From positions 1 to 24,034 of the IMG/VR virus record IMGVR_UViG_3300033571_020595: a stretch of 24,034 nucleotides of DNA; one strand, written 5' to 3'. The number at the start of each line of letters is the position of its first letter. Position 1 is the stretch's first letter. This document shows positions 1,727-19,566 of this stretch, in pieces. A program made the translations under genes and the position numbers. The DNA comes from a virus. The notes beneath the pieces were generated by a model, which was given only the letters and a program-made list of their open reading frames with translations, was not told where the DNA came from and did not search any database.

Positions 1727-1963
1727 TTACCTCATTATATTTTTTTTGTATATTCTATCGTTGAACGATAATTTATCAAGCATATCAGGACAACTATCTG
1801 CAATGGTATCTAGTTCATAATCACTTGGATAATGCCTTAATGCACCACGCGCTCGTTCACGAACAATACCTGGAACCCTAGGAGTTTTTCCTGGATCACA
1901 CAATTCTTCTAATAGTTTCTTACCTTGCTTGATAGCACGGTATCTTTCATCGGCGGTAGTCAT
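1727..1963 (-). CDS. BPSL0761-like small protein of unknown function
   Basis: A 78-residue protein. The segment LLEELCDPGKTPRVP followed by RERARGALRHYPSDYEL matches, from memory, the small BPSL0761 family known from Burkholderia and other proteobacteria and also seen in phages. That family has no assigned function that I know of. The protein looks helical and basic in the middle, with no membrane segment. The ATG at 1963 overlaps the stop of the upstream homing endonuclease gene as ATGA, and GGGAG lies about nine bases upstream. It ends 3 bases before uvsX. It separates the endonuclease from uvsX. The family name is a recollection; the existence of the gene is well supported by spacing and ribosome-binding site. 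Confidence 0.75.
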   Translation of the reverse strand: MTTADERYRAIKQGKKLLEELCDPGKTPRVPGIVRERARGALRHYPSDYELDTIADSCPDMLDKLSFNDRIYKKNIMR

Positions 1964-2580: not shown

Positions 2581-2592
2581 AATGACCGCCAA

Positions 2593-3573
2593 TCAAGACT
2601 TCTTACGATTTTTAATCATGTTCAAGATGTCTTGTGCCTTATCGCTTGATACTGTCTTATTGACAGTTGCAGTTGTTGCCTGCGGTTCAAACGGTAAGTC
2701 ATCATTATCGTTGCTATTTACAGTAGTATTAGTAACGACTTGAGGAACAGTAGTTGTATTATTACTATTTCCACTATTTGGATTGTCTAATCCATATGGA
2801 CGGTAGTAATTACCCCAACGGTCATTGTCGTATGGCCTGCCGTCAACACTAGCCTCAAACATTTCCTTGATAGCGGCTAATTCACTATCGTTGGGCTTCT
2901 TTGGTAAGAACTCAGATAGATTGAACAATCCATGTGCTTCTACTGCTGCTAATTCTGCCTCAGTTAGTGGACTTTCACGACGAGCCCAGTTACTAGTTGA
3001 ATAGTCAGCATATCCACCCTTGCTAGTCTTCTTGATGTTGAAGTCAAGACCGCGAACATAATCAGTTGGCATTTCTTGAATTTCAGGGTCCATCAAACTT
3101 GACTTGATGATTGTGAAAATCTGCGGGCTGATGATAAAACGACGAATTGGATTTGGTGGGGTAACATCGTCACCCATTGGGTTCTGCCTTACAAATCCCT
3201 GATATAGATATGTACGCTTCTTCCAATACTTGTTTGCCATATCCTTAAGAGTATCATCCTTATACCATGGACGAACTTCTGCCAATATTGGGCAAGTTTC
3301 TCCATACATTTCCATGCATGGAACCTGAACTATTACCTGCCTGATATTTGTGTCACCCTTTACACCATTAAAGGGCAACTTAATCATTTGCTTTTCTACC
3401 CAGAAAAATGTGTTATTGGTATCACCGTCTGGAAGAAAACGAACTGTTGCAGTTGTTCCTTCTTCTGCGTTCCAATGTGGGTAAACTGAATTATCTGATT
3501 GCGTTTTAGTAGGCTGATTTTTCTTTTGATCTTGCTTTGCCAAACGCGCACGAATGTCTGCTAAACTTGCCAT
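2593..3573 (-). CDS. 32: gp32 single-stranded DNA-binding protein
   Basis: A 326-residue T4-type ssDNA-binding protein that protects replication intermediates and works with UvsX and UvsY. The N terminus ASLADIRARLAKQDQKK resembles the basic cooperativity region. The core carries YPHWNAEEGTTATVRFLPDG and the zinc-site region with PCMEMYGETCPIL (Cys86 and Cys94); the classical CPxC second cysteine is absent. KKRTYLYQGFV and RRFIISPQIF follow. The C-terminal third is a low-complexity Asn/Thr linker with DNDDLPFE at 289-296, then a helical KAQDILNMIKNRKK end. The start is the ATG at 3573, since a perfect AGGAG sits 7 bases upstream. A longer frame to 3630 would swallow this site. A structured leader and late-type promoter precede it. 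Confidence 0.95.
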   Translation of the reverse strand: MASLADIRARLAKQDQKKNQPTKTQSDNSVYPHWNAEEGTTATVRFLPDGDTNNTFFWVEKQMIKLPFNGVKGDTNIRQVIVQVPCMEMYGETCPILAEVRPWYKDDTLKDMANKYWKKRTYLYQGFVRQNPMGDDVTPPNPIRRFIISPQIFTIIKSSLMDPEIQEMPTDYVRGLDFNIKKTSKGGYADYSTSNWARRESPLTEAELAAVEAHGLFNLSEFLPKKPNDSELAAIKEMFEASVDGRPYDNDRWGNYYRPYGLDNPNSGNSNNTTTVPQVVTNTTVNSNDNDDLPFEPQATTATVNKTVSSDKAQDILNMIKNRKKS

Positions 3574-3580
3574 ATTTTTT

Positions 3581-3585
3581 CTCCT
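3581..3585 (-). promoter_or_regulatory. Ribosome-binding site that fixes the gp32 start
   Basis: Minus-strand AGGAG, seven bases upstream of the ATG at 3573, in an otherwise A/T-only stretch. It is one of the strongest Shine-Dalgarno sites in the window and shows that the upstream in-frame start codon at about 3630 is not used. Confidence 0.85.
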
Positions 3586-3625
3586 ATAAATTAAGATGGT
3601 CTTTGTTTTTACCTTATTATAATTC

Positions 3626-3646
3626 GCCAACTCCCTATGAGTTGAC
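3626..3646 (-). promoter_or_regulatory. Hairpin in the gp32 leader (possible autogenous operator)
   Basis: On the minus strand GTCAACTC, loop ATAGG, then GAGTTGGC forms an eight-base-pair stem (one G-T pair) with a five-base loop. It lies 53-73 bases upstream of the gp32 ATG. An A/U-rich unstructured stretch runs from it to the ribosome-binding site. In T4 the gene 32 mRNA has a folded element (a pseudoknot) at a similar distance upstream that nucleates gp32 binding and self-repression. The position and layout agree; I found no convincing pseudoknot partner for the loop. Confidence 0.5.
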
Positions 3647-3725: not shown

Positions 3726-4700
3726 TTATTTTGGTACTTTGTTGCCCGATCTAATTTGTTGACGCAACAATTCAAATAATTCCAACTTACTTTTGTATAC
3801 TCTGATAATAAATTGTATGCCGTGGGTCATGGTAAAAAAATATTCTGCTTTACCCGGGGTACCTTTAAATTGAGTTCTTACAAAAAACTCATTTTTGTCC
3901 AATCCTCTATATGTATTATTGGACATAGTGCCAATAAGTTCATTATTTGCATATACAATAATAATTCTTTCACCATAATCACTATGAGTAGAACTTTCTT
4001 TTCTAGTTATTTTAGTGGTATAATTTATAGAAGTTTTATGATTGTTTGAATTTTCAGCGACTAGATTGTTTATCGCACGGTAATTCTTTATTATTTCTTT
4101 AATGCATTCCATTTTTGAATTACTAAATCCTTCTGTAAAATGCGTATCTACAAATTTTCCCATAAGCCAATAATAAGTTTTGTCTTCATTGAAACTATGT
4201 AAGTCAAGCGTACCACCTACATAATTAGCGTAAATACTTCCAATATGTATTGAAGTACTTGGGTAATCTGCCCATACTTTTGTAACTTCTGCACTTTTTC
4301 CTAGTCTATTTTCTGCACCAAATTCTGTAGTTATTGAAAATTTAATTGGCTTTGAATTGACTTGTTTTTTGTTTTCTTTTAATAGACGATTTTGAAAATG
4401 TGCCAAAATGAGTTTGATACAGTCTAGTGTATTATTAGAATAGCCATATACTACTGTATTATTTGGGGTTTTTGCTTCCCATCTATAAGAATGCCATGTG
4501 TCTGAAGAACTAGGGTATGAGCCCGTAATTAATGTCCCGTTGGTGTAATAAGAACCTATATCACCTATTAAATGACTCGTTCCATTGTAATTTGCATAAA
4601 CCCTTATAACTTCAAAGGTTTTTTTATCTCTACCCCGAGTATTAAGTTCGTAGATTGTTTTCTCGGTATGATAAGTTATGTTTGAGGTATCTTTTGTCAT
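3726..4700 (-). CDS. Module-repeat protein, three copies (324 aa), function unknown
   Basis: Last gene of the module array. Three units lie at about residues 1-116, 117-224 and 225-324. Each has the Y-x-N-x-x-IG type core (YANYNGTSHLIGDIG; DYPSTSIHIGSI; VYANNELIGTM), a Trp/Tyr strand (SYRWEA; TYYWLMG) and a closing helix (NTLDCIKLILAHF; SKMECIKEIIKNY; THGIQFIIRVYKS). The third helix is the most degenerate. Linkers LLKENKKQ and LVAENSNN resemble those of neighbouring genes. There is no signal peptide or transmembrane segment. It starts 3 bases after the 1277-aa gene with a weak AAGAAG ribosome-binding site and is followed by the structured gp32 leader. I recognise no named domain. Confidence 0.85.
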   Translation of the reverse strand: MTKDTSNITYHTEKTIYELNTRGRDKKTFEVIRVYANYNGTSHLIGDIGSYYTNGTLITGSYPSSSDTWHSYRWEAKTPNNTVVYGYSNNTLDCIKLILAHFQNRLLKENKKQVNSKPIKFSITTEFGAENRLGKSAEVTKVWADYPSTSIHIGSIYANYVGGTLDLHSFNEDKTYYWLMGKFVDTHFTEGFSNSKMECIKEIIKNYRAINNLVAENSNNHKTSINYTTKITRKESSTHSDYGERIIIVYANNELIGTMSNNTYRGLDKNEFFVRTQFKGTPGKAEYFFTMTHGIQFIIRVYKSKLELFELLRQQIRSGNKVPK

Positions 4701-4703
4701 TTT

Positions 4704-7700
4704 TTATTTCTTCTTATCTTTTAACATTTGTTTATGACTTTCAATTATCCATTTAGATGCAGAAGCAATGTCATCGAACCCTTTTCTAATCAATGTTTCT
4801 CTACCATAGTTTTTTATTGATTTATAAAATATAGCCCGAACGAGAGGTTCAAAGGTTAAGTCTATGGTTTTATCTTTTGTAAGATACCAAATAATGCTAC
4901 CTATGAGGTTTTTGCCAAAAAATATTTCCATTCTTTTTACATAACTTTTTTCTAGTGATACTGGTAGTGATACTAGGTCTTCTGCATAAACTTTTGTTGA
5001 GTATATCTTATTTTTCATTGCTTCATTCATTGGTGACGATTTTTTGTCTTTACTAGTCGAAAGTTTTTTATGATTTTCAATTATCCATTTAGATGCAGAA
5101 ATAATGCTATTGAAATATTGGTGAGAAATGTTCTTTGATCTTTGTACAATGTCATCAATTTTATTAACATCTGCTTTAAAGAATCTAGCCTCAAAGGGAG
5201 GTTCAATGGTCATATCTAATATTTTATCATTTGTAAGACCCCAATTGATTTCACCTATAAGTTCTTTACCAAAATATATTTCTATTGTGTTTAGATAACC
5301 TCCATTTGGTAATGGGTCTTCCCTATAAACTTTTGTCGAATATTTCTTGTTTTTCACTGCTTTATTAGTTTGTGACGGCTTTTTATCTTCGTTAGCAGGA
5401 ACTTTTATAAGTAAACTTATAACCTTATGATTTTTAATTATGTTAGAAATAGCCTCATGCAGACTATCAGTGTAGCCATGAGAAATGCCAGCTATATATT
5501 TACCATGTACATACCAGTTATATGTTGACTTTCCGTTCCAATACACAGGATTAATTATTTTATCAACTGATACTCTTACCGCTGAACCAATTGTTTTACC
5601 GTCACAAAATACCTCAAAATTATTAATTTCTTCATTACCTCTTTTTATATCTGTTTTTACTACATGGTACTTGTTGTTTGTGGTTACTTCTTCTGTATTT
5701 TCTGTGATTGTTTTGTTTTTTCTATGAGTATCTATTATTTGTTGTATACCGTCAGTCAACGAATTGGTATTACCGTAGCCTAAAGTAATATCTACCCTAA
5801 GTTTAGCGACCCATCTGTACATATATTTGTCATCTGTTTCTGGAGGACCATATATCCAACCAGGTGCAGGTTTTGCTGCATATGCGTCAGGAATTGGCAT
5901 GCCGGTAGCTTTATCTAGTACAGATATAACTTCTCCTAAATATTTGCCATTATAAAAAACAGTTCTATATTGCAAGTCAGATGTTTCAAATTTTTCTACC
6001 CATGTGTTTACTCTAAAACCTGTATTATTTTTTTCGTTATTTGAGTTTTCTTTTAATGTTTTATTTGCTCTATGAATCTCTAATATTTTTTGTATAGCAA
6101 TAGTCAATGAATTGGTAAACCCAGAACTTATTGAAGAATGATTATTGTCAACCATCCATCTGTACTGATACACAGTACCGTATGTATCAGGAATTGTAGT
6201 ACCTGTATCTTTGTTCAGTTCAGATTGAACTTTTCCTAAATATCTGCCATTATAATAAACAGATCTAGTCTGCAAATCAGTTTTTGGGCCGTTTTCTATT
6301 TTTGAGTATATTTTAAAAAAACCTGTATTATTTTTTTCGTTGTTTGAGTTTTCTTTTAATGTTTTATTTGCTCTATGACTATCTAATATTGCTTGCATAG
6401 CAAAAGTCAATGAATCAGTATTACCAGAGCGTAATATTATTGGACCTCTAAAATCACTATCTACCGCCATCCATTTGTACTGATACCTATTATCGAATGC
6501 ATTTGAAATCGCAGTACCATCATTTTTGTTCAGTTCAGATAAAATTCTTCCTAAATATTTGCCGTTATAATAAACATTTCTAGACTGCCCATCAGTTTTT
6601 GGACCGGTTTCTATTGTTGAGTATATTTTAAAACCTGTAGTATTTTTTTCTTCATTTGAATTTTCTGTTATTTTTCTATGTGTGTTATATATAGACAATA
6701 TTTTTTTAACTGCGTCATTTAAAGAATCCGTCGTGCCAAGCGTATTAATTATAGCCAAATCAGTAGCAATTATTTGCCAAATATACATCTTATTTTGCCA
6801 ACGGTCTGTTTGAGGTACACCTTCTTTTTGTGCGTACTGAATTCTGGCTATAGGAGTGTTATTATGATGTATAGTATAATACATAGTTTCCCAGCCACCG
6901 CCATCATTTACAACACTTTTTTCAACACGAAATTCTGATTTGTTATTTTGCTTTTTATCGCTTTTAATTTCGTTAAGATTTTGTAAGTTTTTATGATATT
7001 CAATGAACTGCCTAATCAAATCGTTTAGAGAATTTGAGAACTTTGTTTTAGTGCGCAGTTCGGCACCGTGATCATCTACTGGGTAACCCCTGTACATATA
7101 GGGATCGTATGGTGGTATGTTCGAAACAAAATAATTAGCATCTATTGTATTACCCTCTAAAATATAAGATTCTATTTTTCCTATAAGTTTATAACTATTA
7201 TGGTCTTCTCTAAAATACAATTTATAAACAACACTACCAATATGTTTATATTGGCTTAATGACCATACTTTGTTATTTACTTGTCTTGTGATACTGTATT
7301 CTGGATTGTTGTTTTCTACTAACTCTATTGATTCTCTCAGACGACCCGTACGGCTTGGACAATTGTTAAACGCATTTGTACATATTTTTATTGCTTCTAT
7401 TAGTGTCTTTGCTTCACCTACATCATTTAAATGATGTTCTTCGGTGCGCTCTGAAAACAGACTTGCTTCAACACGGTAGTGATCGCCTGATTCACCTATT
7501 GGTAACGGAACATCATATTTATCAAAGTTTGCATATATCTCTCCCATTAATTCTCGACCATAACCATGTTCTATAAAATATTTTACCTCTGGGCTACTAC
7601 TGCTCTTCCATTTCAACCTGTCGAAATAATTTAAACTAATGGGGTCGCTAGGGTCATTAAGTTTGTAATAACGGTAAAGAGCCCATGTTTTTCTGCGGTT

Positions 7701-8537
7701 CCCATCAGTATCAAGTTGAAATATATTAGGACCAACAAGTGCAATTTTAGTTGGCATGTTATCTGTCTTTGAAATATTGTTTTCTGCTAACTCTATTGAT
7801 TCATCAGTTTTTGAAAATTGTTTATACCAATTTATGATGTCTTCTATTGCATTATATATTGTAGTTGCAGTATTTCTGATTTTAGTGCGTCTGTTATGTA
7901 ATACTTGATAATCATAATAATGTGTTTTTTCGGTATCATTCGCAAGTACCGTCGCAAGTACCGGCACTATAACTCCATACTTATCAAATTCTGCTTTAAT
8001 TATGCCAATGGTTTCATGACCATAATTTAATAACCAAGTATCTACACGACCCGCAAAACTTCCCCGAATGCTCGTTATTGTTGAGGTTGATTTGTCAATT
8101 GTGTATTGTAAATCATTGTTTTCTACTAAATCTAGTGATTCGTTTGTGTCGCGCCAACGGTTATATCTTTTAAACCGGTGTATAATTTCTTTTATTGCTT
8201 CATGAATTGTCTTTACATTTCTTGGAGCGGATGAAAGTTCATATTGCATTACTTCAAAAGTATAGTAATTATCGTACATATCTAACGGTAATATAACTCC
8301 GTCTTTATTAAATAATGCCCTTATTGATCCCATAAATTGTTTACCGTAACCATGCTTATTGACAAATTCTTCCTGTGGGCTGCCGGGCCACATATTTTGA
8401 AAAAATCTTGCATTACCAGGGTCGTTAGGGTCAAGGTTGCAGTAAAGCTTCCATGTTTTACTCTGAATGCCGCCAGCTGAACTTGCATTTGTCACAGGGC
8501 CAGAAATTATAATTTTAGATGGAATATTGTCTGTCAT
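4704..8537 (-). CDS. Giant module-repeat protein, eleven copies (1277 aa), function unknown
   Basis: About eleven tandem units, at residues 1-140, 141-258, 260-410, 411-533, 534-633, 634-738, 739-838, 839-954, 955-1063, 1064-1175 and 1176-1277. Units 6-8 are closest to one another (YYNGKYLG, YYNGRYLG, FYNGKYLG; linkers LKENSNNEKNNTGF). Units 1 and 3 form a second, longer subtype sharing a GYG(K/R)xxMG core. Units 10 and 11 form a third (KYSTKVYxED, ending ISASKWII). Helix ends follow SLxxAIxxIIxxHR. Most linkers hold LVEN, LAEN, LNE, ITEN or LKEN. The protein is hydrophilic and rich in Asn, Lys and Tyr, without signal or membrane segments. The start overlaps the upstream gene's stop as ATGA. 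A structural or packaged virion role is inferred only. Confidence 0.88.
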   Translation of the reverse strand: MTDNIPSKIIISGPVTNASSAGGIQSKTWKLYCNLDPNDPGNARFFQNMWPGSPQEEFVNKHGYGKQFMGSIRALFNKDGVILPLDMYDNYYTFEVMQYELSSAPRNVKTIHEAIKEIIHRFKRYNRWRDTNESLDLVENNDLQYTIDKSTSTITSIRGSFAGRVDTWLLNYGHETIGIIKAEFDKYGVIVPVLATVLANDTEKTHYYDYQVLHNRRTKIRNTATTIYNAIEDIINWYKQFSKTDESIELAENNISKTDNMPTKIALVGPNIFQLDTDGNRRKTWALYRYYKLNDPSDPISLNYFDRLKWKSSSSPEVKYFIEHGYGRELMGEIYANFDKYDVPLPIGESGDHYRVEASLFSERTEEHHLNDVGEAKTLIEAIKICTNAFNNCPSRTGRLRESIELVENNNPEYSITRQVNNKVWSLSQYKHIGSVVYKLYFREDHNSYKLIGKIESYILEGNTIDANYFVSNIPPYDPYMYRGYPVDDHGAELRTKTKFSNSLNDLIRQFIEYHKNLQNLNEIKSDKKQNNKSEFRVEKSVVNDGGGWETMYYTIHHNNTPIARIQYAQKEGVPQTDRWQNKMYIWQIIATDLAIINTLGTTDSLNDAVKKILSIYNTHRKITENSNEEKNTTGFKIYSTIETGPKTDGQSRNVYYNGKYLGRILSELNKNDGTAISNAFDNRYQYKWMAVDSDFRGPIILRSGNTDSLTFAMQAILDSHRANKTLKENSNNEKNNTGFFKIYSKIENGPKTDLQTRSVYYNGRYLGKVQSELNKDTGTTIPDTYGTVYQYRWMVDNNHSSISSGFTNSLTIAIQKILEIHRANKTLKENSNNEKNNTGFRVNTWVEKFETSDLQYRTVFYNGKYLGEVISVLDKATGMPIPDAYAAKPAPGWIYGPPETDDKYMYRWVAKLRVDITLGYGNTNSLTDGIQQIIDTHRKNKTITENTEEVTTNNKYHVVKTDIKRGNEEINNFEVFCDGKTIGSAVRVSVDKIINPVYWNGKSTYNWYVHGKYIAGISHGYTDSLHEAISNIIKNHKVISLLIKVPANEDKKPSQTNKAVKNKKYSTKVYREDPLPNGGYLNTIEIYFGKELIGEINWGLTNDKILDMTIEPPFEARFFKADVNKIDDIVQRSKNISHQYFNSIISASKWIIENHKKLSTSKDKKSSPMNEAMKNKIYSTKVYAEDLVSLPVSLEKSYVKRMEIFFGKNLIGSIIWYLTKDKTIDLTFEPLVRAIFYKSIKNYGRETLIRKGFDDIASASKWIIESHKQMLKDKKK
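6019..6378 (-). repeat. Near-identical DNA repeats inside the 1277-aa gene (linkers of units 6-8)
   Basis: Copies at 6019-6075 and 6322-6378 match at 56 of 57 bases, 303 bases apart. They encode the end of the helix and the LKENSNNEKNNTG linker. A further degenerate copy begins near 6634. As in the larger gene, DNA identity is concentrated at the helix-linker junction rather than in the strand core. Confidence 0.85.
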
Positions 8538-9220
8538 GGTAAATAATACTTTACTCTTAAATAGTTTTTGTGTCTGTCTATTATCTTTAAAATAGAGTCT
8601 TTCAATGTTTTGGTTACTCCCCCGTTGTATAGATTATCTATCTCGTTCCCGTCTATTTTCCATGGATTAGGATTAATTTTCCAATTATAAGGCTCCTCAG
8701 TATTATTCCAATAATTATTAAGAATAGTACCATCTTTTTTATTGACTACAACTAGTACTGCACCTAACATCGTGTCTTTATAATAAACTATGTAATATTT
8801 ATGTCTAATATTAGGATTGTCAATCTCGCTCCAAGTACCATAATCGAAATCAGATAGTTTAGTAACTATATTGAACCCAGTGTTTGATTTGTCATCTTGT
8901 TCTCTTATATTTCTTTTTTCATTGTCGATTTCTATTATTATTTTTATTGCTTCTTTCAAGTCATTTGCTAGTCCATACTTACTTTTTCTAATCATTGATT
9001 TCCAATAATAGTATCCGCTACCTATATTGTCTTTCCAATAACTTGACCTAACGCCTATTTGACTCCAGGGCATATTTACTATTACATTTTTTGCTCGTAC
9101 AAAACCTATTTCTCTGGTACGGCGAAAAACTTTGTATGTAACATACTCATTTCTAGGGTGCTGAACATAGATTTCTCTTACAACACTATAGAGTGGCGGT
9201 TTTTTAGTAATATTACTCAT
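8534..9220 (-). CDS. Module-repeat protein, two copies (228 aa), function unknown
   Basis: Two units, about residues 1-113 and 115-228. Cores are FRRTREIGFV and YYKDTMLGAV. Tyr/Trp strands are GYYYWKSM and PYNWKINP. Helices are NDLKEAIKIIIEID and KTLKDSILKIIDRHK. The linker is IREQDDKSNTGF, with the same NTGF entry into the next unit as in the 1277-aa protein. I use the ATG at 9220, which has AAAGGAA nine bases upstream. A TTG two codons earlier would leave too little spacing. It begins 2 bases after the stop of the 586-aa gene and overlaps the next gene by four bases, so the genes are probably translationally coupled. It is the shortest member of the array. Confidence 0.85.
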   Translation of the reverse strand: MSNITKKPPLYSVVREIYVQHPRNEYVTYKVFRRTREIGFVRAKNVIVNMPWSQIGVRSSYWKDNIGSGYYYWKSMIRKSKYGLANDLKEAIKIIIEIDNEKRNIREQDDKSNTGFNIVTKLSDFDYGTWSEIDNPNIRHKYYIVYYKDTMLGAVLVVVNKKDGTILNNYWNNTEEPYNWKINPNPWKIDGNEIDNLYNGGVTKTLKDSILKIIDRHKNYLRVKYYLP

Positions 9221-9222
9221 GT

Positions 9223-10983
9223 TCAATATTCCTTTGTTGATGAATCTTTTAAGTGCCGGCGGGGACTTTTGTTGAGATAATCAGGGTGGTTCATGACATA
9301 TTCATATATTTCAATGATTTTTTGAAATCCCTCTTTTATTGAATTACATCCTCCCCGTACTTTACTACGAGTCGGTAGGACCATTAAATCCCAATGTAAA
9401 TCAGTTCCTATATCCCATATATAAGGTGTGTTATATTCATTATCTACTGGGATGACATCCTTATCTGACTCATGCACATGGTAAACTACTGAACCCAAAT
9501 AATAAAGATCCTTATATAATTGATATGTATATATTGTTAAATCCACGGGGTGTGTGTAATTTTTTGATCTTACTTTGTGTTTGCTTGTTTTTACAAAAAA
9601 ACCAGAATTGTTTTCAATATTTTCTTTGATTTTGCGTTTCTTTTTTGCAATTTCTATTATTTTAGTTATGCATTCTTTCATAGAATTTGAATGACCAGAT
9701 ATATGGTCATCCCAAGTAGAACTTGCGCTCCATGTAAACATTTTATCATTGAACCAATTAGGAACAGCAGTGCCATTTATAGTTTTATAAGAAAAACGCC
9801 CAATTTTTTTATTTTTATAATAAATGTCAAAAAATATTATAAAATCGGTAGATTTACTGTAGGGTCCCTCAAGTGGAAAATTTGTCTTAATTATATTAAA
9901 GTCTGATTTTTTATTTTTGCTGTCGTTTATAATATTTTCTTTAATTTTGCGTGTCTTTTTTGCGTTTTTTATTATATTGGCTATACATTCTGACATAGAA
10001 TTCGAATAGCCACCTGTGTTATTATTTCGATTCATCAGCCAAAGAAACATTTTGTTGTTTTGCGCATCAGGAATAGCGATACCGTCGTAATTTTCAATAT
10101 AAGCAACATATCCTAATAATTTTCTTTTATAATAAATATAAAAAAGAATTACAAATCTGTTGTCAGTCGGACTAAGTCGTTCCCTCTTTCTAACTACTTT
10201 AAAGTCTGATTTGTTTAATTTTTCATCTTCGCTTAAGTTTCTTTTAATCCAATCGGGGTCATCAGAATTACTTATTTCAGACATTTCAGTGTTGAATGCT
10301 TGTAATATGTGTTGTATTGCTTTGTTTAAACCATCTTCAGACCCATATCCTAATAATTTCATAGTTTTTGGACCAAGTGCTTCCCAATCATATTGTATTA
10401 ATGGTACCTTTTCTCCTGGTTGCGGCGATGTGCCTCGCCCTGGCCTGTTAACAGATGCATGGTATGTAAACTCTCTTTTACCTACAGTAGGCATTATGAG
10501 TCCAATTCTATACTTATTTTTATAGAATACTTCATAATAAAGATATTGTAATTGTGTGTGTCGATGTTTGCCTGCTCTTTTTCGTACTTTAAAATCGGTT
10601 TTATTTTTTCTACTAGATGCTTGTTCATTTGTTTTACTTAAGTCAGGTAAATGACTGTTAATTACTTTTTGTATTCCGTCTTTTAGCGAATCTGTCGCAC
10701 CACCGTCTCGCAGCTGTGTATGTGTCATTTTAAGAGATACCCATCCGTACATATAGCCCATAATTGCTAGGGGATCAATGGTGCCGTCTTTTCTTAAATA
10801 ACAGTAAACCATACCTATTTTTTTATCTTTAAAATATATATTATGCGTTCTTTTTATATATTCATAGGTATCATCGATAGGAGCATACGGGTTAGTACTT
10901 AGTGTTATTGGAACAGGCACATCTACTATCTTAATTTGATAGTCTGATGTATTTTGCATGTTGTTTTCGTTAGTATGTGTCAT
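9223..10983 (-). CDS. Module-repeat protein, five copies (586 aa), function unknown
   Basis: Five units at about residues 1-129, 130-259, 260-360, 361-460 and 461-586. Cores are YFKDKKIGMV, FYKNKYRIGLI, YYKRKLLGYV, YYKNKKIGRF and LYKDLYYLGSV. Units 3 and 4 are close paralogues sharing IPDAQ/VPNWF turns, SNSMxECI helices and a RKIKEN linker. Entry to units is mostly (S/T)DF or SGF. I chose the ATG at 10983, which overlaps the preceding stop as ATGA and has AGG nine bases upstream. An in-frame ATG at 11028 would overlap the upstream gene by 49 bases and has no ribosome-binding site. The C terminus is a basic tail (NKSPRRHLKDSS). Function unknown; no membrane or secretion signal. Confidence 0.87.
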   Translation of the reverse strand: MTHTNENNMQNTSDYQIKIVDVPVPITLSTNPYAPIDDTYEYIKRTHNIYFKDKKIGMVYCYLRKDGTIDPLAIMGYMYGWVSLKMTHTQLRDGGATDSLKDGIQKVINSHLPDLSKTNEQASSRKNKTDFKVRKRAGKHRHTQLQYLYYEVFYKNKYRIGLIMPTVGKREFTYHASVNRPGRGTSPQPGEKVPLIQYDWEALGPKTMKLLGYGSEDGLNKAIQHILQAFNTEMSEISNSDDPDWIKRNLSEDEKLNKSDFKVVRKRERLSPTDNRFVILFYIYYKRKLLGYVAYIENYDGIAIPDAQNNKMFLWLMNRNNNTGGYSNSMSECIANIIKNAKKTRKIKENIINDSKNKKSDFNIIKTNFPLEGPYSKSTDFIIFFDIYYKNKKIGRFSYKTINGTAVPNWFNDKMFTWSASSTWDDHISGHSNSMKECITKIIEIAKKKRKIKENIENNSGFFVKTSKHKVRSKNYTHPVDLTIYTYQLYKDLYYLGSVVYHVHESDKDVIPVDNEYNTPYIWDIGTDLHWDLMVLPTRSKVRGGCNSIKEGFQKIIEIYEYVMNHPDYLNKSPRRHLKDSSTKEY

Positions 10984-12830
10984 GTCGTTGCCTGCATATC
11001 CTGAAAAGTAACCTGCCCGTGATGCCATGAAAGTATACGATATAATGCTCTTTCTTTGGTATCTGCTGAACCTTCTCTTTCACGGCCATATAGAATTCTG
11101 TTTTCTAATGTGACTTTCCAAAAATAAGGTTCATCAGCAATGTCCGTTTTAATTATTTTTCCTATAAGTGTATTTTTGTAGTAGACTCCTTCTGTGGTTT
11201 GGTCTACTCGTTCGTTACCTCGCAGAACCTTTTTTGTTTCTAATTGTTTAATGGTTATATTGGGTGATGATAGTGTAACACTATCAAATTCTTTGTGCCA
11301 ATCAATGACTTTTGCTATACATGTATTTAGATTTTTACAAAAACCTAATCCATAATACATGTTTTTGCTATCTATTACATTGCAGGACCAAAGATTGTTT
11401 TCCGTATTGTATGTTACTATGCCAAGTTTGTTATTTATAATGGCACTGCTGCCTTGTTTTTTCGTTGTTTTATATATATGATAAAAAGTATTGCCCCAAT
11501 TATCTGAATCTCTTTCTACATGATAGTTGCCTGAAGTTTCTGATGCTTCGTTGAGTTCGTCGTGTGGATTTTTATGAAAATTTAATATTTTTTTAATTGC
11601 CTTAGGCAATGAATCAACATAGCCAGCAAGATATAATTGTTTATCAATTAGCCAAGCATCCCATTTAAAGAAATTTGGATAGTTAAACATACCAGTATGA
11701 ATCGTATTATCCATATTATAATGACAAGTTACCTTACCTAATGTTATTCCATTTCTTTTGATAGTTATAATTTTTTCGATAACGGGCTTTAGTGTAGTAT
11801 GAGCGGAGATTATTTGTGTACTAACTGACGCTGTTGTTGTATCCGAAAAGTTGTTCGATGCATTTTCTTTTACCGGCTTGGTCTTATAAAGACTTTTGTG
11901 ATACTTCTTTATGATATTTTGTATCGCTAGGTTCAATGACTGTGCGGCTTTGAGACTAAAAGGGTCATATCTCACATCAATAGGGCCATAATATTTATAT
12001 AGATATGAACCTTCCGGTAAGTCTAGCATTGCATTATTTAGAAATAAAGTAGTGACATATCCAAGTTTTTTTGAACCAAAATATATCTGATAATTTACTT
12101 GTTTGTCAAAATGAATAAGTATACCGTCTCTATATCGTGCGAGTGCCCTTTCATGATTTACTTCTACTCTGTTTACTCTATAATTATTGTTTTGTGTATT
12201 ATCAATTGATTCTTCTACTTGATCAGACTTATTATCATTTTCGAATTTTTTTATAAGATGTTGTATCGCTAGTTTCAATGAGGACAAACTTCCGTAATCT
12301 ACAACCTGAGAATTTTCATCAATATATGTATACAAATAACCATGCGGTGAACCTAACATTTCATTATTTAGAAATAGAGTATTGACATAGCCCAAATTTC
12401 TTGAACCAAAATATATTTCATACTTTATTTGTTTGTCCCATTTTATACTATAAAGGTGTCTTGGTACAGGATAATTTTTTTCTACTCTGGTTATCTTATA
12501 ATTATCGTTTTCTGTATTATCAGTTGATTCTTCTTTTATTAAATGTTTGTCTCGCCAAGATACTAAATAAACAAGTTTTTTAATAGCAGTGTGTAAAGAA
12601 TGTTCTCGTCCTGCTTTAAAAGCGTCTTGGCTAGGTTCCCAAAAATAGGGCCTTGATACAGATAATAGATTCTCGCCTTTATAGTAATTTTGCACTACTC
12701 CTATTTTTTTATTATTCATGTACACATTATAAAATACTATTCTATCATAGCCTACCCAATGGTCGAAGTCAGGATCAAGTATACTACCCTTCATGAAATG
12801 TCTTTCTTTATCTATATGTAACTTAATCAT
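10980..12830 (-). CDS. Module-repeat protein, six copies (616 aa), function unknown
   Basis: Six units at about residues 1-110, 111-216, 217-332, 333-435, 436-524 and 525-616. Cores are YMNNKKIGVV, YFGSRNLGYV, YFGSKKLGYV, IKRNGITLGKV, INNKLGIV and YYKNTLIGKI. Units 2 and 3 are near neighbours by sequence (TLFLNNEML and TLFLNNAML, with linkers EESxDNTxN), which points to a local tandem duplication. Units 5 and 6 are more diverged and shorter. Helices include SLPKAIKKILNFHK and NLNTCIAKVIDWHK. The start overlaps the end of the 1507-aa gene by eight bases, which implies coupling; no strong ribosome-binding site is visible. Hydrophilic, without signal peptide or transmembrane segment. Function unknown. 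Confidence 0.87.
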   Translation of the reverse strand: MIKLHIDKERHFMKGSILDPDFDHWVGYDRIVFYNVYMNNKKIGVVQNYYKGENLLSVSRPYFWEPSQDAFKAGREHSLHTAIKKLVYLVSWRDKHLIKEESTDNTENDNYKITRVEKNYPVPRHLYSIKWDKQIKYEIYFGSRNLGYVNTLFLNNEMLGSPHGYLYTYIDENSQVVDYGSLSSLKLAIQHLIKKFENDNKSDQVEESIDNTQNNNYRVNRVEVNHERALARYRDGILIHFDKQVNYQIYFGSKKLGYVTTLFLNNAMLDLPEGSYLYKYYGPIDVRYDPFSLKAAQSLNLAIQNIIKKYHKSLYKTKPVKENASNNFSDTTTASVSTQIISAHTTLKPVIEKIITIKRNGITLGKVTCHYNMDNTIHTGMFNYPNFFKWDAWLIDKQLYLAGYVDSLPKAIKKILNFHKNPHDELNEASETSGNYHVERDSDNWGNTFYHIYKTTKKQGSSAIINNKLGIVTYNTENNLWSCNVIDSKNMYYGLGFCKNLNTCIAKVIDWHKEFDSVTLSSPNITIKQLETKKVLRGNERVDQTTEGVYYKNTLIGKIIKTDIADEPYFWKVTLENRILYGREREGSADTKERALYRILSWHHGQVTFQDMQATT

Positions 12831-15800
12831 TTTTAAATTGCTCTAATTTAGCGTTTAACTTGCTATAATCGATTTTTTCATCTGTTAGGTCGTATTCTTT
12901 TTTGAATATTTTTACTATGCTGGTGACTGCATCATGTATCGTTCTAACATGTTGTATTGACGGGGAGTCAGTTAATCCATAAACATAGTATATTTTTTTA
13001 AGGTCGTTAGCATATCTTGAAATAGTTGCTATAGTATTATTATTTGCGCTAACTTTATAGGTAGCACTATAGGTAGACCCAAAATCTTGTTTTAGATCTA
13101 AATCTACAGTAAATTTTTCTCTAAAGTTTTTATAAATGTCTATAATGAATTTTATAGCATGAGTTAATTTATTAAACTCTTCTTTTTCTTTACCAACATG
13201 TCTATGTATATCAATGCTATATTCTTTTGGGTCTTTTGTATAATAAGACCTAGCGTAGTACGCATTATCTTCCTCTCTTGCAAGAACATTACCTATTTCT
13301 CTTCCGTTTGCATACACAAAATAGGGCGGATTGTACAGAGGCGATGTAGTTTTATTTGGGGTTGTTCTATATACTGTGTATTTGACACTCTGATCAGAAT
13401 TTTCAGTCAATTCTTTGTGTTGATTCGAACCAGACAACAATTCATCTATTTGCCTTTTGATACCATCATAATCTATGTTGGCTTTGATTTTAAATTTATC
13501 TAAGAATTTTTCGATGCTGACTATAACAGCATCATAAAGAGTGTTTCCTGTAAATCTTTGTTTAGTAACAGTATTGTATTGCCAATCTACAGTGTATTTA
13601 TTTTTACCAGTTCGATAGTTGAACCAGCAACTTATTTGTGTAAAAACATTGTAGTGATAATATCCATCAAAATCTGATGCTACTTTAACTACAAATATGT
13701 CGTTATGTTGTTCGACAAGAAACTGTGGGTTAAAATTATTTATAAACTCTTTATATCGATGAATCAAGAACTTAACACCGTCAAGTAAAGAATCGAAAGT
13801 TTGCCAAGTTGCAGCAGCTTTGCCCCATACTGGCAAAGTATAAGTATTTTTACTATAATAACCAGTAGCGTGTGTTTTCCCGCCCTTTATATCTCTAAGT
13901 AATTCTCCTATTATCTTATTATTAGCCATAAGATAAGATTTCGTATTAGATATATGTTTAACAGTGTAAGCAACATCGTTGTTTGATTTATTTGATTCTG
14001 TCATGAGACCAAGTTTTTCTTCTTGCCTTTTGCTAATTTCTTTCCATTTTTTGTTTGTTGGATCTAGTATCATTTTTATTGCATCTGTTAAATTGTCAAA
14101 TATTTTCGTACTTTCCCCTATAAGTGTTGCCCGCGATGATCTGCTGTAATAACAATTTGAATTTTTAATATAATCTATTTTTCCAATTTCTATACTATTT
14201 TTCTTAACACTATAAATTATATGAAATTTATTTTCGTGCCAGCGTTCTACACTAAACTTTGACCGAGTATCAGATTGAGAATTTTCTTTTGATTCTGTTA
14301 TACGATTAGCCTTTCTAAGTTTTTCTTGTTGACTTCTACTAATTTCTTTCCATTTTTTGTTTGTTGGATCTAGTATCATTTTTATTGAATCTGTTAAATT
14401 GTCAAATATTTTTGACCCTAAATGATATGCATTGCTGAGATAAAAAGTAGTGCCTTTAAAATATTCTATTTTTCCAACTATTACATTGTTTTTATAAACA
14501 TAGTAAGCAACTTCATCTTTATCTTCGTAATAGCGTTCTATCCTAAACTTTGGTTGAATATCAGATTCAGAATTTTCTTTTGATTCTGTTATACGGTTAT
14601 TTTTGAAAAGGTTTTTGTGTTGACTTCTACTAATTTCTTTCCATTTCATGTTTAATGGGTCTAGTATCATTTTTATTGAATCTGTTAAATTGTCAAATAT
14701 CATCACAGGAGTACCATGCGCTGTGAGATCACTATATGTTCTGCTAGAATAAAAATTTTCATATTTTGAATATGTTATTCTTCCGATTCGTTGTTCATTT
14801 TTTCTAACTACATAAATTATATCTTCATCGTTTTCGTGGTAGCGTTCTATCCTAAACTTTGGTTGAGTATCAGATTGAGAACTTTCTTCGATGTTTTTAT
14901 TTTTGGATTGTTTATTCATATCTCTCAATCTTTTTTTCAATTGATTTGTATTTATTGTTGCGTCTATATTATGATGTTCTAAAAATCTTGATATTAGGTA
15001 CAGTGCTGCATCAATTTCTTTTCTAAAATTATTTTCTTTAGGTTTATAATCATCCATATTGTAATAAGTACGATATAGATTCCCAACTTTATAAAATCTA
15101 CCTATTTCATCGTCTGATGCATGAACAGTTTTTATAATACCAGGTACACCTGACTGAATAAAATCTATGAAAAAATATGGCTTATAAATACGCCTAAATT
15201 CATTATATGAATCAATAACATCTTTTATTGCGTTCTTTAAACTATCATGTCGCTTAAAGCCTACAGCCAAACTTCTTATCCCGGACATTAGACGCATTGG
15301 GTCATAATTATACCGTTTGTTTGTAAAAATTGTATTTGTTGCATGCGGTCTAGTAAGTTGTCCTATCAGAGCATCGTTAGCAAATATATCAAATTTATCT
15401 CCAAATGAATCTTTGCCTGCAGGAACTACTCTGTAATCCACACTTTTTTTGTTGCTTTCACTTATGTTTTCAGTAGTCTTTTTTTCGCTATGTTTGGATT
15501 CTAACTCTATTAATTTTTGTACTGCTTTAGCAAAAGTCTCAAATCCACCATAATTATAAATTGTATCTATGGGACCATGGTATTTGAAGACTATAAACGA
15601 TGGATTAAGACTATTTTCATTCCATTTTTTGATACGACCAATTTGTAATCCATTCTTATATATGATTGTTTCGGTGGGAAATTTTTCATCTCTCTTCGCT
15701 GTATATGTAGAACTTTCGTCATTTTCATTTGTGTTTTCAGTGAATGGTTTTTTACCATATTTGTATCTGGGTTCTAAGTCTATTAATTTCTGTACTGCTT

Positions 15801-17346
15801 TAGCAAAAGTCTCAAATGCGCCATAACTATCGTATTGATATTCGAACGGGTATCTCTCAAAATCAGGAGCATAGTTTTTGAATACCATGTATAACGGGTT
15901 AGGACCATAGATATGTTCATTTACTTTTTTGATACGCCCAATTTCTAACCCGTCCTTATATATTATTGTATAGTTATCGTCAAGGGTATCTTTTTTTGCT
16001 TTATAGGAATTATAGTCAGAATTTTCATCTATAATAACTCTATCGGGTGGTGTATTTATTATTATTATAGTTTTTATAGCCTTATTAAGAGTTGAATGGA
16101 GACCTATATATATATCACCATCTTTAGGAGATAGGTAAGCCCAATAATGAGTTTTATTATCTACTGGGTCTATAGATCTTCTTACATAACCAATTTCTAC
16201 ACCGTTATCGTATACCCTTACTATATCTTCTTGTGTTTTAGTAGTATATCTATTAGCATTTTCAGCAATATCTGTTTTTGAACTATCTTGTCGTTTATGC
16301 CAATCTAATATTTTTTTGATTGCTACATTTAAAACCTTTTCTCCACCTAAATAATGGAAGCCATAATTATGGCTGCCATAACCGCTATGTTTTACAACTC
16401 TATCATCTTTTGCAACTACGAAAGGACCATACCGTTTTTCACAATTTTCTTTTACTCCTACTATCCCAATCCATTCAAAGTCATCGTATATCCTAAATTC
16501 ATAATGAGATCCAAATGTAAAATCTCTTGGATCATTGACTTTTACTGCTCTTATCTTTCCTTCATTGATATATGGTACTGACTCAGATATATCAGTGTGA
16601 TTTTCTTTAATATTATACCTATCTTTATACCAGTCTAATACATTTTTGATTGCTTGATTTAACACACCCTCTGGTTTTAACATTGTCCAAAAATGTTGAT
16701 TGATATTTTTGTTTAGATGTAAACCATATGGAACATAACGATATTTACCATTTAAAAAAATGATACTAATTGTTCCTATAGTTGTATCATCATATGTTAC
16801 TTTAACAGTAGTATCACTTACTTTTTCTGCACTAAATTTTGATTCACTCAAGTTTGTATTAGGCTTGTTTTGAGTAATAATTGCTTGAACAGCCTGACTA
16901 AAAGATTCAAAGTTTCCTATTTTTCTAAGATGTTTTGCTCCGCCGCCTTTCTCGTTAGGTAAAGCACTAAATGCCATATACACGGGTCTATCTGACCCTT
17001 CAAATTTATCAAATTTTGAAACAAGTCCTATTACTGAATCATTTTTTAAAATTCTAATATCATTTTGTAGGGAAAGGGAATAAGTAACCTTTTCTCCTCT
17101 ATAGACTGGAAAGTGATATTTTTGTATTGCGTTGATCGCTTCATCGTGAGTTTTGTAGTAACCCAAAGTAGAAAATTCATCTCCATCATAAACATAGGTT
17201 TTAAAATAAAGTTGTTTGTTTTTGTAATCATCATTCGAAATATATCCGTGTCCTTTGGCAATGGATCCAATTTTTTTATTATTATAAAAAACACCTGTCA
17301 GATTAGGAACATGTTCAGATGGTATTTCGATTAGATCGGGATACAT
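12823..17346 (-). CDS. Giant module-repeat protein, sixteen copies (1507 aa), function unknown
   Basis: The largest gene. Sixteen units lie at about residues 1-86, 87-169, 170-264, 265-366, 367-444, 445-545, 547-636, 637-723, 724-829, 830-932, 933-1029, 1030-1124, 1125-1208, 1209-1320, 1321-1415 and 1416-1507. Typical cores are FYNNKKIGSI, YDNGVEIGYV, YKDGLEIGRIKK and YKNGLQIGRIKK. Helices include SLKNAIKDVIDSYNEF and TLNKAIKTIIIIN. Units 6-7 and 10-12 are recent-looking duplicates. Units 8+9, 13+14 and 15+16 are pairs joined without a linker and ending in a lengthened helix (KIDYSKLNAKL type). The ATG at 17346 has AGGAA nearby and begins 18 bases after the 733-aa gene. No signal or membrane segments; function unknown. 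Confidence 0.88.
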   Translation of the reverse strand: MYPDLIEIPSEHVPNLTGVFYNNKKIGSIAKGHGYISNDDYKNKQLYFKTYVYDGDEFSTLGYYKTHDEAINAIQKYHFPVYRGEKVTYSLSLQNDIRILKNDSVIGLVSKFDKFEGSDRPVYMAFSALPNEKGGGAKHLRKIGNFESFSQAVQAIITQNKPNTNLSESKFSAEKVSDTTVKVTYDDTTIGTISIIFLNGKYRYVPYGLHLNKNINQHFWTMLKPEGVLNQAIKNVLDWYKDRYNIKENHTDISESVPYINEGKIRAVKVNDPRDFTFGSHYEFRIYDDFEWIGIVGVKENCEKRYGPFVVAKDDRVVKHSGYGSHNYGFHYLGGEKVLNVAIKKILDWHKRQDSSKTDIAENANRYTTKTQEDIVRVYDNGVEIGYVRRSIDPVDNKTHYWAYLSPKDGDIYIGLHSTLNKAIKTIIIINTPPDRVIIDENSDYNSYKAKKDTLDDNYTIIYKDGLEIGRIKKVNEHIYGPNPLYMVFKNYAPDFERYPFEYQYDSYGAFETFAKAVQKLIDLEPRYKYGKKPFTENTNENDESSTYTAKRDEKFPTETIIYKNGLQIGRIKKWNENSLNPSFIVFKYHGPIDTIYNYGGFETFAKAVQKLIELESKHSEKKTTENISESNKKSVDYRVVPAGKDSFGDKFDIFANDALIGQLTRPHATNTIFTNKRYNYDPMRLMSGIRSLAVGFKRHDSLKNAIKDVIDSYNEFRRIYKPYFFIDFIQSGVPGIIKTVHASDDEIGRFYKVGNLYRTYYNMDDYKPKENNFRKEIDAALYLISRFLEHHNIDATINTNQLKKRLRDMNKQSKNKNIEESSQSDTQPKFRIERYHENDEDIIYVVRKNEQRIGRITYSKYENFYSSRTYSDLTAHGTPVMIFDNLTDSIKMILDPLNMKWKEISRSQHKNLFKNNRITESKENSESDIQPKFRIERYYEDKDEVAYYVYKNNVIVGKIEYFKGTTFYLSNAYHLGSKIFDNLTDSIKMILDPTNKKWKEISRSQQEKLRKANRITESKENSQSDTRSKFSVERWHENKFHIIYSVKKNSIEIGKIDYIKNSNCYYSRSSRATLIGESTKIFDNLTDAIKMILDPTNKKWKEISKRQEEKLGLMTESNKSNNDVAYTVKHISNTKSYLMANNKIIGELLRDIKGGKTHATGYYSKNTYTLPVWGKAAATWQTFDSLLDGVKFLIHRYKEFINNFNPQFLVEQHNDIFVVKVASDFDGYYHYNVFTQISCWFNYRTGKNKYTVDWQYNTVTKQRFTGNTLYDAVIVSIEKFLDKFKIKANIDYDGIKRQIDELLSGSNQHKELTENSDQSVKYTVYRTTPNKTTSPLYNPPYFVYANGREIGNVLAREEDNAYYARSYYTKDPKEYSIDIHRHVGKEKEEFNKLTHAIKFIIDIYKNFREKFTVDLDLKQDFGSTYSATYKVSANNNTIATISRYANDLKKIYYVYGLTDSPSIQHVRTIHDAVTSIVKIFKKEYDLTDEKIDYSKLNAKLEQFKND
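14033..14701 (-). repeat. Near-identical DNA repeats inside the 1507-aa gene (units 10-12)
   Basis: Copies at 14033-14106 and 14339-14412 match at 73 of 74 bases. A third at 14630-14701 is more diverged. The spacing is 306 and 291 bases. They encode the FDNLTDxIKMILDPTNKKWK helix of units 10-12. The intervening strands are less conserved, so the helix and linker segments are the youngest or most homogenised part. Confidence 0.85.
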
Positions 17347-17364: not shown

Positions 17365-19566
17365 TTATGAACCACCGACCAACTTTCCTTTGAAAGGATG
17401 CTGTTTTGGTTTTTTGCCTAATACAGGACTAATATGCCTTGCAGGTTGTGTAGGTCCTAATTGACCTACTCTTTTTTGTGACTTGCTTATGTCTTCAGAA
17501 ACATACAAATGGTCTTGTTTTTTATCTCTTAACTTGTACCATTTAATGATTGCATTTGTTGCTTTAAATTTATCTGGAAAATTTCCTAAAAAAGTCTCAT
17601 TGTGAAGGTCATAAAGTTCTTGGTCTTCTTCTTCGTATGGATGAGTATATATATCAATATGACTTAGGGGCGGGGGTTCGAGGTAACCGTCGGCGATTTG
17701 TAATTTTTTCCAATTATCATCTAACTCATTATAAAAACTTTGCTGTGCCGGTGATTTTTTATATTTGGGGTGTTGGAAAACCCACGCGCCCAAATTATCA
17801 GAAATTCTCCCCTCTTCACCCCACTCTTCTAACATACCAATTAATTTATTATTATCAAATATTACAATTTGTCCGGTATATGAGTCGCGTTTTGCACTAA
17901 TAGATTCAGTAATATTATCATAAGAATTAGCAATATTTTTTTCTGGTGTTTTGCTTATATCTTCAGAAACATCTTTTAACTTGTCTTTTACAAGTTGCAA
18001 AACCCCTAAAGTATCAAAGTTGCATTTTGAGCCAGATAATAATTTTTGAGTTTTGTAGTTTTCTATCTCATCGATGATGTCAGTAGATGTCAGACCTTTT
18101 TTTTTACTAAGCCTGCTGGCAACATCTGTTGCGCATTGCTTATCATCTACTACTTTATTTTTCTGTTCACCTATGTGCTGTGTAGAATGTTTTACATCTG
18201 CCAAATGAACATCGATGCCTGCTGTAGACTTCAATTTCCAGTTTTTCGCAGCCTTTTGTGCTGCTTCATGTGAAGAATTAGCACTGCACTCATACTTACC
18301 CTTTTTAGCATGTACACACACATATGGTCTTTCTGACTTTGAATTTTCTTCTAAACCTATTTTTCTTAGACCAAGTTGTCTGTCTGTGACTGGGCCACCT
18401 GCATAATTTACTTTGCTACCTGCAGGAATACTGTCACTATCTCTAAATTTGTAAATGGTTCTATCAAAAGGAGTAAATTTTTCTCCATTCCATGTGCCAA
18501 TGGCTCTTCCGTTTTTAATTACTTCATAATCATGATATTTGACATCATCAAACTTACCTAAGGATGCCTCAGATATTGGTTCTTCTGGTATATCACCTAT
18601 CAATGATTTAGTCCAGTCTTTCAATTCATTTACTTCTGCCATCTCTACTATGTTTTTGCTTAATCTGTTTAATATTGGCATTACAGATTCTATTCTTGGG
18701 TCTAGTTTTTCCTGTACGAAAAGTTCATTGATACTGTAGTTTTCTTCAGTTTCTTCATTTAGTACAGGTGTATAAGATTCGAAATACTTATTATAACCTC
18801 TTTGTGAGGTCAATCCCTGTAGTGTCATCTTTAGACTATTATAATGTTTTAAACCTTCATTAACTAATTTAACTGCTTGTTCATTAAATTGGCCTCTTCT
18901 TGTGGCGCGCACAAACCCAGCCATTTTAGTATATTCTTCTACCAATCCTTTGATATGATTCCACTTATCATCGTTTGGCACCCCGCCCTCAGCAACATGT
19001 CTTGCATAAACTCTTGCTATTCCGGGTCTTTTTGTTGGTAGTAAAAACCTCTCTCCGTTTGTATTTTCTAAAAATATTTTATCTACATAACGAAAACGCT
19101 GTTCGTTTTCGTCTAGTTGTCTTGTATGATTAATGACAATTTTTACCTGAGGTATATTATCGTTGTAACTTGTTTTCTTATTGATAGGATAATATCCTTC
19201 GCCCAAATTTTCTTTTTGTTTTGCATTGGTTCTTTTTTGCATGTCATACCTCAAATGGTCTTTATTGGTAATATTAAAACCTAGTAATTTTCGTTGTGCC
19301 CAATTTTTCATATATCTAACGAAAGAGTCAAAATCAACTACATCAGAAAAGTTATCGTCTGTATATAACACTAGTTCAGGACCTTCGATTGTTGCCCAAG
19401 CAGGAACTAATTTACCCTCATTGTTCTTTACTGAAAATCGAAAAACATCTGCTTTTTCTACTTCGTTGCTAGGATTTCCCTTGCTGTTTAAAGAAATAGG
19501 GTCATATCCTCTAGATCTTAGAGCATCATACAAATGTTTGTTTAGTGTCTCGTTATTAATAGGCAT
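17365..19566 (-). CDS. Conserved 733-aa phage protein of unknown function with a module-like C terminus
   Basis: Follows the terminase gene after 21 bases. Residues 1-330 form a conserved-looking core (LGEGYYP, HTRQLDENEQRFRY, NGERFLLPTKRPGIARVYAR, EYTKMAGFVRATRRGQFNEQ) of a kind I associate with large marine myoviruses, probably virion-related. Residues 331-410 hold a half-module (DYEVIKNGRAIGTW). Residues 415-470 hold a small domain (KYECSANSSHEAAQKAAKNW, then KSTAGIDVHLAD). Residues 560-685 resemble the array module (VIFDNNKLIGML; KATNAIIKWYKLRDKK). The tail is basic and Pro/Gly-rich. VSEDISK occurs at both 533-539 and 689-695, flanking that unit. It could be a head or scaffold component; no function is assigned. 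The ribosome-binding site is weak. Confidence 0.85.
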   Translation of the reverse strand: MPINNETLNKHLYDALRSRGYDPISLNSKGNPSNEVEKADVFRFSVKNNEGKLVPAWATIEGPELVLYTDDNFSDVVDFDSFVRYMKNWAQRKLLGFNITNKDHLRYDMQKRTNAKQKENLGEGYYPINKKTSYNDNIPQVKIVINHTRQLDENEQRFRYVDKIFLENTNGERFLLPTKRPGIARVYARHVAEGGVPNDDKWNHIKGLVEEYTKMAGFVRATRRGQFNEQAVKLVNEGLKHYNSLKMTLQGLTSQRGYNKYFESYTPVLNEETEENYSINELFVQEKLDPRIESVMPILNRLSKNIVEMAEVNELKDWTKSLIGDIPEEPISEASLGKFDDVKYHDYEVIKNGRAIGTWNGEKFTPFDRTIYKFRDSDSIPAGSKVNYAGGPVTDRQLGLRKIGLEENSKSERPYVCVHAKKGKYECSANSSHEAAQKAAKNWKLKSTAGIDVHLADVKHSTQHIGEQKNKVVDDKQCATDVASRLSKKKGLTSTDIIDEIENYKTQKLLSGSKCNFDTLGVLQLVKDKLKDVSEDISKTPEKNIANSYDNITESISAKRDSYTGQIVIFDNNKLIGMLEEWGEEGRISDNLGAWVFQHPKYKKSPAQQSFYNELDDNWKKLQIADGYLEPPPLSHIDIYTHPYEEEDQELYDLHNETFLGNFPDKFKATNAIIKWYKLRDKKQDHLYVSEDISKSQKRVGQLGPTQPARHISPVLGKKPKQHPFKGKLVGGS
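17483..17972 (-). repeat. 22-bp direct repeats flanking the C-terminal module of the 733-aa gene
   Basis: Copies at 17483-17504 and 17951-17972 share 21 of 22 bases (ttgctta, then t/a variation, then tcttcagaaacat). They encode the repeated peptide VSEDISK and lie exactly 468 bases (156 codons) apart, in frame. The segment between them encodes the module-like unit, which looks like an insertion or duplication bounded by short homology. Confidence 0.75.

Follow-up and report, generated by a model that had tools for sequence, protein, structure and literature searches.

Organisation of the locus

The window analysed here is the whole 24,034-base IMG/VR record, which is itself a fragment of a phage genome. 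Its minus strand encodes, in order, a lysozyme-like protein, the terminase large subunit, a protein designated g7, six genes designated g6 to g1, a gp32-like single-strand DNA-binding protein, a homing endonuclease and UvsX (Table 1). The terminase is 49% identical over 99% of its length to those of PA5oct and Paride, which are jumbo phages of the Arenbergviridae, and 78-91% identical to those of many relatives in IMG/VR. Genes g1 to g6 lie on the same strand and neighbouring genes overlap or almost abut. They form an island bordered by g7 on the 5' side and gp32 on the 3' side, with g7 itself outside the array. The first-pass annotation had placed this block next to the terminase and lysis genes; the terminase is indeed close, with g7 in between, and the lysozyme-like gene lies beyond it.

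Judging from the sequence, g4 probably starts at the ATG at 10983 rather than at the listed position 11028, which would give an ATGA overlap with the stop codon of g5. The start of gp32 is likewise probably the ATG at 3573 (MASLADIRARL, matching relatives) and not the TTG at 3630, and a TTGACA promoter-like element is found upstream. The candidate late-promoter motifs TATAAATA and CTAAATA occurred only at chance frequency in our promoter-motif counts. The gene directly after gp32 encodes the homing endonuclease, which is NUMOD3/GIY-YIG-like.

Table 1. Features of the window, with the repeat units of g1 to g6 and the motifs in the linkers between them (arrows follow the Glu residue), and gap-filling proteins of three relatives (coordinates of the relatives' records)
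Feature	Position	Strand	Description
Terminase large subunit	19588..21135	-	similarity to Paride/PA5oct; places the phage
g7	17365..19566	-	733 aa; virion structural protein (phrog_13484, E 3e-7)
g6	12823..17346	-	1507 aa; 16 units (28-43); linker motifs LSE↓S, IKE↓N, ISE↓S, IAE↓N, IDE↓N, FTE↓N, ISE↓S, IEE↓S, ITE↓S (twice), MTE↓S, LTE↓N
g6, first eight units	17104-17337, 16855-17088, 16615-16839, 16285-16557, 16039-16254, 15757-16011, 15484-15711, 15190-15441	-	
g6, last eight units	14962-15180, 14641-14859, 14350-14550, 14044-14259, 13738-13974, 13483-13728, 13117-13386, 12892-13107	-	
g5	10980..12830	-	616 aa; 6 units (22-27); linker motifs IKE↓E, VEE↓S, VKE↓N, LNE↓A
g5 units	12546-12764, 12231-12503, 11886-12185, 11562-11831, 11283-11528, 11010-11258	-	
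g4	9223..11028 (as listed)	-	5 units (17-21); linker motifs TNE↓Q, LSE↓D, IKE↓N, IKE↓N
g4 units	10639-10944, 10282-10596, 9946-10206, 9631-9903, 9292-9603	-	
g3	8534..9226	-	230 aa; 2 units (15-16); linker motif IRE↓Q
g3 units	8912-9196, 8558-8878	-	
g2	4704..8537	-	1277 aa; 11 units (4-14); linker motifs LVE↓N, LAE↓N, LRE↓S+LVE↓N, LNE↓I, ITE↓N, LKE↓N (twice), ITE↓N, MNE↓A
g2 units	8157-8522, 7812-8111, 7359-7754, 6984-7304, 6675-6935, 6363-6632 (unit 9), 6060-6320, 5712-6017, 5415-5672, 5058-5348, 4722-5009	-	
g1	3726..4700	-	324 aa; 3 units (1-3); linker motifs LKE↓N, VAE↓N
g1 units	4386-4682, 4068-4346, 3744-4028	-	
gp32-like protein	2593..3630	-	single-strand DNA-binding protein (phrog_1192, E 9e-65)
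Homing endonuclease	1960-2592		NUMOD3/GIY-YIG-like
Gap protein, L014	7451-8923		490-520 aa
Gap protein, L017	3186-4742		490-520 aa
Gap protein, L018	11599-13080		490-520 aa

Six genes built from one repeated domain

Genes g1 to g6 are built from a single domain family. Splitting the proteins by eye and with a profile gave 43 units between positions 3726 and 17346, matching the roughly 43 copies, and exactly the counts per gene (3, 11, 2, 5, 6 and 16 from g1 to g6), that had been read from the sequence at first pass. The domain is about 90 residues long (range about 70-130) and the units carry a mean net charge of +2.6. A profile built from 15 seed units recovered 37 of the 43, seeds included, at E<0.01; the remainder (u6, u29, u31, u36, u41 and u43) were assigned from position and pattern. 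When a 14-unit profile was run on the DNA of the window it found 25 places, 11 of which are outside the profile. The sequence marks proposed earlier are likewise present in the 39 aligned units, in which the G of x-x-I/L-G is conserved at 90% or more and is accompanied by a Y/W strand and a closing A-I-x-x-I-I helix. Units 35+36, 40+41 and 42+43 of g6 form two-domain pairs in which the second domain has diverged.

The highest identities (45-61% at the amino acid level) are between adjacent units (u9/u10, u13/u14, u19/u20, u23/u24, u33/u34 and u37-u39), which indicates tandem duplication and bears out the expansion suggested previously. Most of the differences within recent duplicate pairs are amino-acid replacements; the pooled dN/dS is 0.73 (95% 0.57-0.94), a value that is high for a folded protein and reflects weak constraint or fast change. 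The accompanying suggestion of selection for copy number or diversity fits this value in part, but positive selection on the units is unsupported since dN/dS is below 1. No relative with a different number of units was found among 70 g7-gp32 loci, 36 whole records and phage Paride.

Profile searches of Pfam, PHROGs and the PDB with the six whole proteins and with single units, including a Pfam search with 39 single units, gave nothing above the cut-offs. These searches revealed neither a sequence relation of g1 to g6 to a known internal protein family (Pfam, PHROGs) nor a match to a peptidase domain (Pfam, PHROGs), and nothing resembling a fibre, Ig-like or decoration family was found in Pfam, PHROGs, the PDB or BFVD. 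A tblastn search of 50,697 phage records with g6 and g2 returned no match, as did five scans of IMG/VR (g6, g2 and three alignments of close units) and two of GTDB (g2 and one alignment); these scans require near-exact short peptides and so may miss distant relatives. At the search sensitivity used, the results support the view that the module is one unrecognised domain, as the first-pass annotation had held.

Unit 9 of g2, modelled by AlphaFold2 with the 39-unit alignment, is predicted with high confidence (mean pLDDT 95.3, pTM 0.86) as five strands followed by a C-terminal helix. In the model of a diverged tandem pair from g6, strands followed by one helix occur twice and the segment between the domains (residues 84-99) is coil with pLDDT <50. 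The pair appears to share the general order of elements of unit 9, at a lower confidence (mean pLDDT 67). With unit 9 as query, the best Foldseek E values were 0.65 in the PDB and 0.16 in BFVD, neither of them significant, and the g6 pair had no significant match in the PDB. Weak matches to the PUR repeat and ThermoDBP folds, which bind single-stranded nucleic acid, recurred; we regard these as a lead only and do not assign nucleic-acid binding to the units.

A conserved aliphatic-x-E motif in the linkers

The most informative feature of the block, which the first-pass annotation did not notice, is the conserved aliphatic-x-E motif of the linkers, which is present in 30 of the 37 inter-unit linkers when V, M and F are allowed besides L and I. 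It is absent from six, and one further linker has T-x-E only. The strict form, L/I-x-E, occurs in 24 of the 37, compared with 6.7 expected and a maximum of 15 in 2,000 within-linker shuffles. Among 640 motif classes scored on the 33 linkers left after removal of redundancy, aliphatic-x-E ranks first (z 6.7, the second class having z 2.9); it is found in 25 of them, against 7.3 expected and no more than 13 in any of 400 shuffles. Sites are also denser in the linkers than in the domains (36 per 672 and 46 per 3850 residues respectively; odds ratio 4.7, p 2e-10) and differ in the residue that follows Glu, which at linker sites is N in 17 cases and S in 8 of 34, whereas at domain sites it is mostly I, L or A and in few cases N or S. 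An excess of L/I-x-E over whole proteins was rejected as a marker: because the terminase and gp32 also show about twice the composition-based expectation, only the contrast between linkers and domains and the shuffles were used. The motif is short, and copies of it in other proteins are probably uncut.

The Glu and the aliphatic residue at -2 are retained even though the domains fall to 15-25% identity, whilst the rest of the linker varies in length and letters. Between the closest pairs of units, the linkers around the site are better kept than the domains; for example, the linkers following u9 and u10 are identical at 17 of 17 residues but the domains are only 60% identical. Because the linkers arose from one another by duplication, shared descent accounts for part of the motif's conservation. 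Three of the six linkers that lack the motif are the inner junctions of the g6 pairs, and these are unusually short, as if the pairs should stay joined.

Phage surface proteins often carry tandem repeats of one domain, and g1 to g6 could on this model remain whole as virion proteins of the bead-on-string type, serving in capsid decoration, a fibre or the baseplate, the repeats adding length or binding sites and the motif representing a helix cap plus an Asn/Ser-rich flexible linker inherited by duplication. The linkers are indeed low-complexity and homologous. We nevertheless consider this unlikely, since two linker positions outlast the divergence of the domains they join, the searches gave no likeness to fibre, Ig-like or decoration families, and the three motif-less junctions within the two-domain pairs are so short.

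Protease, capsid protein and g7 in relatives

The prohead protease of T4, gp21, cleaves after L/I-x-E (PMC9026906), and that of SPN3US prefers Ser at P1' (PMC10052503). Five relatives of the phage studied here encode a Peptidase_S77 prohead protease (PF03420) together with a gp23-type capsid protein (PF07068); the 24-kb window contains no protease gene, and the enzyme is known from these relatives alone. The N-terminus of the relatives' capsid protein carries a string of candidate cut sites, MSKVLLE↓SRW..ALLE↓GLKG..VLLE↓NTRKQLLAE↓STAG, and such strings end in LLAE↓S or LLKE↓S right before the shell domain. In four of the five relatives the N-terminus of the protease contains L(R/K)E↓N, as in MALYLRE↓NLTF.

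The g7 protein has 77 distinct homologues, in which the N-terminal part is conserved and the C-terminal part is variable. Among those shown, the C-terminal modules APGAxTL and DLDxxQKRxGQLG are nearly always preceded by aliphatic-x-E. Across g7 and its homologues (L019-L098) we observed short modules, such as APGAETLKHNQ, DLDANQKRxGQLGP and SGLQAYLG, that are shuffled and mostly follow L/I/V-x-E. These strings suggest that the clade uses such an arrangement elsewhere too, and g7, too, may be a head polyprotein that undergoes processing. The modules of this family resemble g1 to g6 in standing behind aliphatic-x-E, but they differ in sequence from one another and are present in one copy each. 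A candidate for an ancestral unit in g7 (17452-17844) aligned weakly to the unit family (hhalign probability only 6%) and is not claimed as such.

Upstream of the terminase in four relatives (L034, L041, L057 and L062) are two adjacent small open reading frames of differing sequence with a similar MRAxEFIxE leader, which resembles the capsid-targeting sequences of T4.

The island is absent from relatives

The genes for g7 and gp32 lie close together in all 70 relatives that carry both, separated by 81-4,181 bp as opposed to 13,738 bp in the window. In some relatives this gap is empty and in others it contains fibre-like genes, a coiled-coil protein or a homing endonuclease; in none of the 70 does it hold a unit. 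A search with the unit profile of 36 whole relative records and phage Paride also found no unit, the positive control being the window itself, with 25 places found. Since both flanking genes are present and the units absent in 70 of 70 cases, the 13.7-kb island appears to be private to this phage. Misassembly of the contig is unlikely, as the genes on either side (terminase-g7 and gp32-uvsX) have the order and orientation seen in the relatives and diverge from them to a matching degree. In one relative (L044) a GIY-YIG-like gene lies between g7 and gp32, at the place taken by the island in the window; together with the similar gene after gp32, this suggests a possible hotspot for insertions. 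In more distant relatives the gap is filled by an apparently coiled-coil protein of 490-520 aa, the N-terminus of which (MREILEFESWANGMLNE) is like a targeting leader.

Absence from relatives and a dN/dS of 0.73 would both fit an arms race in which g1 to g6 are cytoplasmic multi-domain proteins that are never packaged, for example multivalent inhibitors or sponges directed against host defence. The block sits between late head genes and the early gp32, so that its position allows either timing. However, its place after the terminase and g7 with no clear promoter of its own tentatively suggests late expression, and a cytoplasmic role leaves the protease-like linker motif unexplained; we therefore judge this explanation improbable. 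It is highly improbable that the array merely expanded in tandem of late, non-adaptively and without any role under selection: although it is private, low in GC and relaxed in dN/dS, its 43 units occupy six open frames over 13.6 kb with no internal stop, the fold core and linker motif are conserved, and dN/dS is less than 1.

A candidate system of processed head cargo

From the units, their predicted fold, the linker motif and the occurrence of protease and motif in relatives, we infer that g1 to g6 are probably polyproteins that are cut in the head by a T4-gp21-type protease, releasing single domains that are packaged, probably injected, and may act on the host. This reading is further supported by the location of the block, on the same strand, after the terminase and a virion protein. 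The polyproteins, consisting of folded domains strung on disordered linkers with aliphatic-x-E sites, would be expressed late together with the terminase and g7 as part of the head gene block and would enter the prohead. There the protease would cleave after the Glu of each linker to yield some 37 individual proteins, small, mildly basic and mostly single-domain. These would remain in the head alongside the DNA and probably be injected, after which the diverged copies may, like IPI* of T4, target host factors, of which defence systems are the likeliest.

Cleavage of T4 IPI gives a 76-residue protein (IPI*), which enters the host by injection and inhibits a restriction enzyme there (PMC3012670). 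The internal head proteins of T4 that are cut by gp21 (IPI, IPII, IPIII and Alt) share L/I-x-E sites with g1 to g6 and have small basic mature domains, to which the units, near IPI* in size, are similar. Their content likewise varies between relatives, they share the head gene context, and a T4-type protease and capsid protein also occur in the clade of this phage (five relatives). In T4, however, there is one gene per internal protein, and each product is cut once or twice and carries at its N-terminus a capsid-targeting leader of 10-19 residues that ends in the site, whereas a single chain of g1 to g6 can hold as many as 16 copies of the domain, with a site in most linkers. A clear shared leader of this kind is not evident, which is the main weakness of the proposed reading: an early LIE (residues 5-7) is found only in g6, IYE of g1 and VRE of g3 sit within the first strand, and g2 and g5 have no early site. 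By analogy, g1 to g6 may work like the T4 internal proteins but are not members of that family.

The inner-body (ejection) proteins of phiKZ and SPN3US are also abundant inside the head and are cut at several x-x-E sites, and the Ser after the cut in SPN3US matches the frequent Ser after the linker Glu. In contrast to the aliphatic-x-E described here, their motif is S/A-x-E or A-x-E; the cuts remove propeptides instead of releasing many repeat domains, and no arrays of a single domain are described for them. Polyvalent proteins, which occur in phages and conjugative elements (Iyer et al. 2017, PMC5512222), have many domains per chain and a head-gene context, and are thought to be packaged and sometimes processed. 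They comprise 2-15 different, often enzymatic, domains and often their own peptidase, unlike g1 to g6 with a single repeated domain type and no peptidase match, although some polyvalent proteins also have no peptidase. The first-pass annotation knew of no described system of this kind; we found none with so many copies of one domain, but these three groups of proteins work along similar lines.

More tentatively, the locus may represent a capsid-maturation protease turned polyprotein processor, in which some 40 diversified copies of a new fold, still expanding in tandem, serve as multiplexed injected inhibitors; we see this as possible, with the balance somewhat against it. If g1 to g6 are processed as proposed, they would constitute a phage head cargo system with a true polyprotein logic, which would explain how dozens of related small proteins can be loaded without dozens of genes or targeting leaders. 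The locus offers a panel of some 40 naturally occurring versions of a single new small domain, the targets of which, possibly host defences, could be screened. As g7 suggests, the linker test may also provide a simple, purely sequence-based means of recognising head cargo that is processed in other large phages.
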